Positions 12,384-27,115 of a DNA stretch of 64,000 bases are shown in pieces; the first letter of the stretch is position 1; each line of letters opens with the position of its first letter. A model generated the notes under the pieces. That model saw nothing but the letters and a program-made list of their open reading frames with translations. It did no database searches and had not been told where the DNA came from. The DNA is from Methanofollis fontis (GTDB lineage: Archaea; Halobacteriota; Methanomicrobia; Methanomicrobiales; Methanofollaceae). The stretch covers positions 1 through 64,000 of the forward strand of contig NZ_PGCL01000002.1 in the NCBI RefSeq assembly GCF_004297185.1, read 5' to 3'. A program made the position numbers and the translations under genes.

Positions 12384-12920
12384 TCAATTGATTTTATCTG
12401 ATGTATGTTCTCTCTGAACCTGATTCAGACAGTCTTCCCCCGCTGTTCGGGGCACAGATCTCGGGATGATCGTGGGTCCGTCCCTTTTTCGTGGATCAAC
12501 AAGGCCAACGACTGCTTCGTCGACATTCGGCCCGTATTTTGCATAATCCACAAGGCTCGGACTGCTCTTCATGAACCGGCCCGTCTGGAGGCGGTAGGGT
12601 ATCGCAGTGAAAAATTCATCGCATACCGTCCTTATCTCCTCAATCACCCCTTCGTCATCGACTTCAAGGATGAACGTGCCGGCCTGAACCTTCATCTCGA
12701 CTGCGGCACCGCCGACCTGGATTGTCCGCCTGTTGGAGTTGGGATTTGCCGAACCCCTCGCCGGTCCGTACGGGACGGTGGCCGGGAGGCCGGGACCGTT
12801 GATCACGATCCGGCGGATACCCGGCACCTCTGCACAGCGACCGAGAAATTTTTCGGCCGTCTGGGGCGAAAGGAGCCTCAGGGGGACAATCCTGCACTGG
12901 GGGAAGGCTGAATCAGGCAA
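12384..12920 (-). CDS. mcrD: Methyl-coenzyme M reductase operon protein D
   Basis: 178 residues, McrD family. McrD is not a subunit of purified active Mcr; it associates with assembly or maturation forms and is thought to help F430 loading. The family match is in IRRIVINGPGLPATVPYGPARG and in the IQVGGAAVEMKVQAGTFILEV segment. The only plausible initiator is TTG at 12920, which overlaps the mcrB stop (TTGCCTGA); no ATG, GTG or other TTG occurs in frame before residue 76. Weak initiation may keep its level below the catalytic subunits (inference). Confidence 0.93.
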   Translation of the reverse strand: MPDSAFPQCRIVPLRLLSPQTAEKFLGRCAEVPGIRRIVINGPGLPATVPYGPARGSANPNSNRRTIQVGGAAVEMKVQAGTFILEVDDEGVIEEIRTVCDEFFTAIPYRLQTGRFMKSSPSLVDYAKYGPNVDEAVVGLVDPRKRDGPTIIPRSVPRTAGEDCLNQVQREHTSDKIN

Positions 12921-14229
12921 TCAGATCAACGCCCTTGGCGATCTGGTCCATCGGCTTGTTGAATACGTCGATCTTGCCGTAGGTCTCGCCCATCACCTTG
13001 GAGGTGCCCTCGGGGGCGAACATCTGGGTGCCGGCGTCGAGGGCGCAGGCGGCGACCACACACGGAATGGCGACGCCGTTGGCGTGCCTGGTCACGACGT
13101 GGTTGCCGTTGAAGATACCCGGACCGCCGCCACCGTAGATCGAGTGGCTGAAGAACGAGAAACCGACGGCAGTACCCATCACACGACCGAAGTCGCAGGA
13201 GGGCAGACCGGTCTCGTGCTCGATGAGGTCGTTGAAGTAGAGCAGGGTCGAGGAGACAGCCTGTGCAAACCGGCCGGCACCACAGTTGACGATGGTTGCG
13301 GCGAGGGAACCGGCGGCCACGTAGGCGTTCCAGAGCATCGGGTCCTTGGTGTCGAAGTACTGGAAGTACCCGCCCTTCTTGCCCGGAACGATGACCTTGT
13401 CCTCGATCGCGCGCTCAACCAGGGACTGGACGACCGTACCGACGGTGCCGGTCTCGCCATTGTTCTTGACGAGGTCGTAGACCATGTTGTTGGCGTTGAG
13501 GCCCTGGTAGGCGTAGGCGAGGAGCTGGTAGCGCTCGAAGGGGCCGATGGCGGCGCCCATCTCGAACTCACCGGCGGTCTCGAGGGTTGCGGCGAGGGCA
13601 ACACCCTGCAGGGAGTTCCTGCCGGTCATCATCACGTAGTGGTTGACCGGGATGTTGCGGAGTGCGTAGCCGATACCTTCGTTGTTCTGGGGAATGTTCA
13701 GGATCGAGGAGACCAGCGCACCCTGCATGTCCATGGTGTGCGGGTATCCGCCCCAGCATGCCGCCTTGACGGTCGATGCGTTGAAGGCGTCGATGTCGAA
13801 CTGGTCGACGATGGCGTAGGTGGCCGCGGAGGCGACCGAGGTGATCGCCGCATCGTAGGTGGCGGCGTTGGCCAGACGCTTCGTCGGAACCTGGACAAGC
13901 AGAAGCTTGCCGTCGTTGAACTCCAGGATCTCGGTGTCGTCGCCTTCTTCGACCTGGACCATTTCCTTGATCTTGGCAACGATGGCGTCCTTGTTCTCCA
14001 TGATCGCAAGGTCAAGTTCACGGCCGCGAACCTTTCCCTTTCCAAGCTTCCCGGCCTTGAGGGCCTGTTCGATACCCCCAAGGTTGACATTAATCGTTCT
14101 CTTTGTCAGGTCAATGATCTTGCTGGTAGCCGGGTTGACCAGCGGGCTGATCTTGTCGAGGGAGACGCCGCTCTTGAGCAGCTTCCCGTCGTCTGAGTAG
14201 AGATCGATTGTTTCTGAATATGCTGCCAT
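12913..14229 (-). CDS. mcrB: Methyl-coenzyme M reductase beta subunit
   Basis: 438 residues, full length and first gene of the operon. Family features include the N-terminal MAAYSETIDLYSDDGKLLKSGV and the glycine-rich FSFFSHSIYGGGGPGIFNGNHVVTRH near the active site, where β-subunit residues bind coenzyme B and F430. The start is preceded by AAGGATG. Transcription probably begins about 110 nt upstream at a TATA promoter, leaving a structured leader (see separate entries). Confidence 0.99.
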   Translation of the reverse strand: MAAYSETIDLYSDDGKLLKSGVSLDKISPLVNPATSKIIDLTKRTINVNLGGIEQALKAGKLGKGKVRGRELDLAIMENKDAIVAKIKEMVQVEEGDDTEILEFNDGKLLLVQVPTKRLANAATYDAAITSVASAATYAIVDQFDIDAFNASTVKAACWGGYPHTMDMQGALVSSILNIPQNNEGIGYALRNIPVNHYVMMTGRNSLQGVALAATLETAGEFEMGAAIGPFERYQLLAYAYQGLNANNMVYDLVKNNGETGTVGTVVQSLVERAIEDKVIVPGKKGGYFQYFDTKDPMLWNAYVAAGSLAATIVNCGAGRFAQAVSSTLLYFNDLIEHETGLPSCDFGRVMGTAVGFSFFSHSIYGGGGPGIFNGNHVVTRHANGVAIPCVVAACALDAGTQMFAPEGTSKVMGETYGKIDVFNKPMDQIAKGVDLIA

Positions 14230-14280
14230 ATCAGTACATCCTTTTACCCTTTGTGCAGGAAGGAACGTTCACGTGGGATT

Positions 14281-14340
14281 CCGGGCTGCAGTCCCAGATA
14301 AATCCCCGAGAGTCACTACTGCAAGCCCCGAATTGGGACT
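14281..14340 (-). promoter_or_regulatory. Structured 5' leader of the mcr transcript (candidate)
   Basis: The predicted mcr leader begins with AGTCCCA, which pairs with TGGGACT 14290-14296 (7 bp). The enclosed loop holds GGGCTTGCAG (14328-14319), which pairs with CTGCAGCCC at 14291-14283 (9 bp, one bulged T), just beyond the first helix. The two helices share nucleotides 14290-14291, so they are either mutually exclusive or form an H-type pseudoknot with a shortened first helix. No known riboswitch class was recognised. Folding was done by eye. Confidence 0.5.
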
Positions 14341-14370
14341 ATAGATCTATCCCAAAGGCCTCATATAAAA
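14341..14370 (-). promoter_or_regulatory. mcr promoter (TATA box and start-site palindrome)
   Basis: On the minus strand TTTTATATGA at 14370-14361 fits an archaeal TATA box. A perfect 10-bp palindrome, ATAGATCTAT (14341-14350), lies between it and the predicted start near 14340. A protein bound there would block polymerase loading (inference). Confidence 0.65.
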
Positions 14371-14783: not shown

Positions 14784-14960
14784 TTAGTACCGGGGTTTCC
14801 TGTGCTTGGGAAGACAATCCCTGCAGTAGACCGGTCTCCCTTCTGTCGGTTTGAAGGGAACTTCACATTCCTTACCGCAGTCTGAGCAGACTGCCTTATG
14901 CATCTCGCGGGGGCCGCGGGAGAAGTTGTCCCTCTGACCTCCAAATCTATTGCCGTACAT
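14784..14960 (-). CDS. Small CxxC-x17-CxxC zinc-binding protein
   Basis: A 58-residue protein. Cysteines at 25, 28, 46 and 49 give exactly CxxC-x17-CxxC (CSDC then CRDC), a pattern named for small methanogen proteins, plus an extra Cys32. The N-terminus (MYGNRFGGQRDNFSRGPRE) is glycine/arginine-rich and the C-terminus basic, which suggests nucleic-acid binding, but function is unknown. It has its own promoter: AATATATATAGAG about 45-55 nt upstream, and AGGTTGA just before ATG 14960. Similar motifs appear as domains in larger archaeal proteins. Confidence 0.8.
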   Translation of the reverse strand: MYGNRFGGQRDNFSRGPREMHKAVCSDCGKECEVPFKPTEGRPVYCRDCLPKHRKPRY

Positions 14961-15137
14961 TGCTCAACCTATGCAGTTGATGCTGCAAGGAGTCATTTGG
15001 GTGCTCTCTATATATATTCATGCATGCACGCCATCGCCATTGCGTCTCCGGTGAAAGGCATTCCGGAGGGAGTGGGTCTCCCCCGACAACGGGATACTGT
15101 TTTTATTTCATGAGTGCCCAGTCCCAGATGGAGCATC

Positions 15138-26947: not shown

Positions 26948-27115
26948 GGGGTCGTGGCCTAGTCCGGAATGGCGACGGGCTCCAGCGGTCTTTGCGCGTG
27001 ATGAACAATGGGTCTGCTGAATTGATGATGACCCGTTGGAGCACTGATGCGAGTCGTGTTCCCCGTGCATGTCGGAGAGACCCGTCGATCGTGAGTTCAA
27101 ATCTCACCGACCCCA
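26948..27115 (+). tRNA. tRNA-Trp (CCA) with intron
   Basis: The acceptor GGGGTCG pairs with CGACCCC, discriminator A. Exon 1 runs to the nucleotide after anticodon CCA (26982-26984). Exon 2 begins at 27080 (position 38), so the anticodon stem ACGGG/CCCGT forms only after a 94-nt intron (26986-27079) is removed. The T-arm is gtgagttcaaatctcac. TATA-like ttattaaatc lies about 35 nt upstream. Confidence 0.96.
26998..27047 (+). ncRNA. Intron-encoded C/D box guide RNA for tRNA-Trp
   Basis: Inside the intron are box C GTGATGA (26998), D' CTGA (27017), C' TGATGA (27023) and D CTGA (27044). The D guide (27033-27042) pairs with the unspliced exon 1/intron junction, placing C34 at the fifth base before the box. 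The D' guide (27008-27016) pairs with spliced positions 35-43 and places position 39 there. These are the sites known from Haloferax tRNA-Trp (Cm34, Um39); here position 39 is C. Confidence 0.9.

Follow-up and report, generated by a model that had tools for sequence, protein, structure and literature searches.

Virtually all methane of biological origin is the product of MCR, one of the most abundant methanogen enzymes, and to our knowledge no cis-acting RNA element has been described for the mcr operon. Bacterial mRNAs of the ompA type carry stabilizing stem-loops at their 5′ termini, and the leaders of ribosomal protein mRNAs are autoregulatory and bind protein. In archaea, crcB and TPP riboswitches are found (PMC2864571), and the mtaA and mtaC mRNAs of a cold-adaptive methanogen are credited with long, stabilizing 5′ UTRs (cited in PMC5378194, an article that makes no mention of mcr). 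A limited search of the open-access literature, which omitted key surveys, turned up no account of a leader RNA for mcr.

The mcr leader analyzed here lies in a window of 64,000 nucleotides from Methanofollis fontis and consists of a 5′ hairpin (P1), a conserved unpaired box (box 1), a second stem (P2) and a less conserved 3′ part. Like the stem-loops of ompA-type mRNAs, P1 starts only a few nucleotides from the 5′ end, as judged from the spacing to the TATA box, and lies upstream of the gene for an abundant protein; unlike them, its stem sequence and the adjoining single-stranded box are conserved across the order Methanomicrobiales, at the operons of one enzyme only. Ribosomal protein leaders are likewise limited to the operons of one gene product and combine unpaired conserved boxes with variable hairpins, but the mcr leader has no known binding protein, and a role of MCR subunits or of McrC/McrD as its binder is pure conjecture. 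With the mtaA and mtaC 5′ UTRs it shares a place before methanogenesis genes and a presumed influence on mRNA stability, although those leaders belong to other genes and another order, and no conserved motif is described there. The crcB and TPP riboswitches are also structured 5′ leaders in archaea, whereas the mcr leader has no Rfam match, shows no expression platform and follows a single enzyme in its distribution. At the gathering threshold of Rfam 15 the leader gave no match, and a relaxed search returned chance matches only (E 2.3 and 3.6, both on the opposite strand). The element belongs to a known kind, the cis-acting 5′ leader RNAs, but appears to be undescribed as a family.

Architecture of the mcr leader

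The first gene of the leader-bearing mcr operon is mcrB (12913..14229, minus strand; ORF of 438 aa), whose relatives are 66–94% identical, and the leader occupies 14340-14230 of the minus strand (111 nt). For comparison, leaders were collected upstream of mcrB and of its paralogue mrtB. Read 5′ to 3′, the common layout is a TATA box, 30–32 nt, P1, box 1 immediately behind it, P2, which has no fixed sequence, the less conserved 3′ part, which carries UUCAGU and UAUUGUAY or AUUGCAC, and the ribosome site. In M. fontis the features are as follows.

14362..14369, minus strand: TATA box TTTATATG of the mcr operon, from its sequence and its spacing in relatives
14338..14341, minus strand: inferred transcription start, from the TATA spacing and the published Methanosarcina rule
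14335..14340, minus strand: 5′ arm of P1, (A)GUCCC, present in 129 of 147 distinct mcrB/mrtB leaders
14324..14329, minus strand: 3′ arm of P1, GGGGC(U), pairing with 14335-14340
14312..14324, minus strand: box 1, UUGCAGUAGUGAC, with the order-wide consensus GUGCARUAGUGAC
14301..14306, minus strand: 5′ arm of P2, GGGAUU, a covarying stem in the genus alignment
14281..14297, minus strand: distal helix and loop of P2, CUGGG-ACUGCAG-CCCGG, predicted probability 0.94–0.96 in the full leader
14275..14280, minus strand: 3′ arm of P2, AAUCCC, pairing with 14301-14306
14237..14260, minus strand: box 2 and ribosome-binding region, UCCUGCACAAAGGGUAAAAGGAUG, almost unchanged among Methanofollis mcr leaders

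A first-pass annotation of this DNA had predicted that the mcr mRNA begins at a helix arm near 14340. That prediction is well supported by the comparison of leaders and is sound, because the TATA box lies at 14369-14362 and the same spacing recurs in relatives: 85 of the 90 leaders with a scorable box (at least 6/7 match) have 30–32 nt between the TATA box and the initial G of GUCCC. In Methanosarcina, transcription starts about 23 bp 3′ of the TATA box (PMC11409679), and by inference the mcr mRNA begins no more than about 2 nt away from the opening base of P1. The distance from P1 to the AUG varies from 107 to 133 nt while that from the TATA box to P1 stays at 30–32 nt. Farther upstream of mcr, a gene for a small CxxC...CxxC zinc-ribbon protein is found (14793-14961, minus strand); it was rejected as a conserved partner of the operon, being near mcr in some Methanofollis genomes only.

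Across the order, P1 follows the consensus GUCCC-(3–8 nt)-GGGAC. Its stem sequence is nearly invariant and shows no double change, both arms are retained around a loop of 3–8 nt, and its five core pairs have a predicted probability of 0.96 in the full leader. The GUGCA positions of box 1 carry 1.4–1.7 bits each (41 sequence clusters). The distal helix of P2 is formed by 14297-14293 with 14285-14281. At the place of box 2 and the ribosome-binding region, other Methanomicrobiaceae have a related UUGCACAAA..GGUAA..GGA. A tiny ORF is also present just upstream of mcrB (14231-14239, minus strand; AUG-UAC-UGA, in relatives AUG-AAC-UGA). A single base separates its end from the mcrB start codon, and it overlaps a weak SD-like AAGGAUG; Methanofollis mcr leaders conserve its AUG, and Methanoculleus mcr has a frame-shifted AUG there.

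Covariation and folding

The comparison of relatives indicates that P2 behaves as an RNA structure and, because P2 has compensatory changes, that the leader acts as RNA. In Methanofollis, 93% of the cells of P1 and P2 together are paired, and none of 500 shuffles, which preserve column make-up and not relatedness, scored as high in paired cells or covariation. In the Methanogenium group, five of the six P2 pairs show double changes (0/500 shuffles as high), and in Methanoculleus mcr the P2 hairpin is present with covariation that is not significant (62/500 shuffles as high); all these counts, those for Methanofollis included, are biased toward the proposed pairing, since the clade-wise alignments and the P2 registers were both picked by eye after inspection of the sequences. 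Folding against dinucleotide shuffles agrees for the P2 region, with a mean z of −1.15 (p about 2e-6, 55 clusters), and a promoter control sequence gave a z of 0.03. Because P1 has no compensatory changes, the case for its pairing rests on the retention of both arms around variable loops.

The last 45 nt before the AUG are, if anything, less structured than shuffles (mean z +0.32), and masking of the ribosome site as a general feature is unsupported by this folding. A further candidate helix, P3, would pair GUGCA of box 1 with the RBS-proximal UUGCAC/UAUUGUAY. Its complementarity exceeds that of shuffled sequence (p about 3e-4), and it was rejected, as pairing within a lineage was no better than pairing with the sequence of other lineages. 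For box 1, neither a second conserved fold nor lineage-specific covariation with the RBS-proximal region was found.

Two overlapping helices specific to one genome

The first-pass annotation had proposed a cis-acting RNA at the 5′ end of the mcr mRNA, in the form of two overlapping helices that would make a pseudoknot or switch. A structured leader does stand at this position, and across the order, but it is not the structure proposed. The two complementarities exist in the sequence: helix A has seven Watson–Crick pairs on the minus strand (14340-14334, AGUCCCA, with 14296-14290, UGGGACU), and helix B has nine pairs around a bulged U (14328-14319, GGGCUUGCAG, with 14291-14283, CUGCAGCCC). Neither is conserved inside the genus. 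Helix A is intact at 7/7 pairs in one of 129 distinct leaders, namely that of this genome, and among eight distinct Methanofollis mcr leaders only 50% of the cells of helix A and 57% of those of helix B are paired, roughly the level reached when the partner is slid by one column, as against 93% for P1 and P2. No compensatory changes were found in either helix among relatives, an outcome that the first-pass annotation had itself named as refuting, and in helix B not one pair is changed on both sides in the eight Methanofollis leaders. The 3′ arms of both helices (14283-14296), which lie in the distal helix and loop of P2, are unique to the species and rank with the leader's most variable stretches in the genus. 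Some 7-bp Watson–Crick helix can be found in 22% of shuffled 111-nt leaders.

Predicted folding gives a similar picture. In the ensemble of the full leader, helix A has a probability of 0.00 and helix B of about 0.04. Helix A stays at 0.00 at every transcript length tested, and helix B reaches 0.78–0.99 in transcripts ending at 14279-14270 and is then displaced by P1 and P2. Helix B may form in passing while this one gene is transcribed, and is at most such a transient, because it dominates only in those transcripts. Nor was any switch-like anatomy seen, the last 45 nt before the AUG being no more structured than shuffles. Helices A and B are chance matches in a single genome, and we give almost no credence to a pseudoknot or switch built from them, which is rejected because neither helix is conserved.

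Distribution among Methanomicrobiales

Of 232 genomes from the order Methanomicrobiales, 140 contain a match to a strict pattern for the element, some of these matches being chance. A covariance model of P1 and box 1 (R1) was run against 394 genomes from the phylum; matches at E<1e-4 were confined to Methanomicrobiales, at one or two per genome, and those outside the order reached only E 1e-3 to 1e-2. The genome of M. fontis has two R1 matches, at mcr and mrt only. All inspected strong R1 matches precede mcrB or mrtB, and two weak matches to the pattern alone (L177 and L178) have no mcrB downstream. Among the named carriers are Methanoculleus chikugoensis, M. sediminis, Methanogenium marinum and Methanocalculus taiwanensis. 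The element is absent before mcr-I of Methanospirillum, Methanoregula and Methanolinea, and from Methanocorpusculum.

Comparison of the leaders thus places one order-wide element at the putative mRNA 5′ end of mcr and mrt in most Methanomicrobiales. On the McrB tree it occurs on both deep isoenzyme clades and its absences are clustered, as scored by a regular expression that wrongly counted L055 as a carrier; because of this pattern the element is probably ancestral to both the mcr and the mrt operon. MCR expression in general does not depend on it, because it is absent from the mcr-I clade and from Methanocorpusculum.

Departures from the common form were also seen. Leader L018 has a GUCUC/GAGAC form of P1, a compensatory change, together with a partial duplication. 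Diverged relatives keep the RBS-proximal UUGCACAAA box, whereas their 5′ hairpin has changed (L010, L018) or disappeared (L005). The mcr-I leaders of Methanoregula and Methanolinea (L019, L024, L025, L027, L030, L032) have a different conserved upstream sequence of their own.

Proposed function and alternative readings

Our preferred reading, to which we give a probability of about 0.45, is that P1 and box 1 at the mRNA 5′ end are read by a sequence-specific partner that sets the lifetime and/or the translation of mcr and mrt mRNA. The partner, most likely an RNA-binding protein, would recognize these two features at the very start of the mRNA, the P1 hairpin would block attack on the mRNA from that end, and recognition and block would jointly set the lifetime and/or translation of the mRNAs for both MCR isoenzymes. 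That the partner reads sequence is suggested by the absence of covariation in the P1 stem and the near-invariance of box 1. An effect on mRNA lifetime or initiation rate would be likelier than an on/off switch, given the 5′-terminal position of P1 and the open ribosome site. Somewhat more tentatively, the element may represent an undescribed class of regulatory RNA that goes back to the ancestor of Methanomicrobiales. A dedicated sequence-specific factor or signal would then read P1 and box 1 and control both MCR operons together after transcription. As a candidate of another kind, a trans-encoded small RNA directed against the 3′ arm of P1 or box 1 was rejected: a genome search allowing two mismatches gave fewer matches than the reversed-pattern control.

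The leader could instead be a constitutive shield and spacer, in which P1 stops a 5′-to-3′ exonuclease like archaeal RNase J and P2 acts as a spacer for the ribosome site, with neither regulation nor a specific partner. The start of P1 no more than about 2 nt from the inferred 5′ end, the unstructured ribosome-binding region (mean z +0.32) and the stabilization ascribed to the long mtaA and mtaC 5′ UTRs (cited in PMC5378194) would all fit, but a mere shield needs neither an invariant stem sequence nor an order-wide GUGCARUAGUGAC box, and we regard this explanation as possible though unlikely. Conserved single-stranded boxes beside variable hairpins also resemble an aptamer, and mcr and mrt have cofactors in common, so that the unpaired boxes might be the putative binding pocket of a riboswitch for F430, a precursor of it, coenzyme M or nickel. 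P2 covaries and the boxes are conserved, but P1 does not covary. Such a metabolite riboswitch is improbable, however, in view of the confinement of the element to mcr and mrt, with no occurrence found at genes of cofactor synthesis or transport, and of the lack of a conserved expression platform, as the RBS is unmasked and box 1 has no second conserved fold; nor does the leader sequence show a U-rich terminator.

The fixed distance to the TATA box and the lack of covariation in P1 would suit an element that works as DNA, with GTCCC-N-GGGAC and the downstream box bound as DNA or tuning promoter escape or early pausing. Yet the spacer between the palindrome arms varies from 3 to 8 bp, which would rotate the half-sites against each other, and P2 covaries as RNA, which makes a DNA-level role quite improbable. 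Box 1 can also be read as a mini upstream ORF near the 5′ end, start-Gln-stop (GUG/UUG-CAR-UAG), and the codon pattern fits strikingly: a start, one codon and a stop are read in 113 of 129 leaders, 33 of the 34 clusters that have this form carry CAG or CAA as their second codon, and variation falls on the start base and third codon bases, with one TAG-to-TAA change. The frame is kept in 34 of 41 clusters, but independent single-base indels in several lineages (L054, L064, L084, L167) break it and keep both halves of the box; the stop is lost in L013, and no SD stands at a suitable spacing. The mini ORF was rejected on the strength of these indels, and we hold it to be very unlikely.

A compact element common to mcr and mrt throughout an order offers a defined target for pull-down of the regulator and a testable handle on how MCR isoenzyme levels are set. 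Were the element an undescribed class, the methane-forming step would have a dedicated regulator at the RNA level.

Elsewhere in the window

On the plus strand, at 26948-27115, lies a tRNA gene with an intron, and the intron matches the box C/D RNA sR3 (26994-27049).
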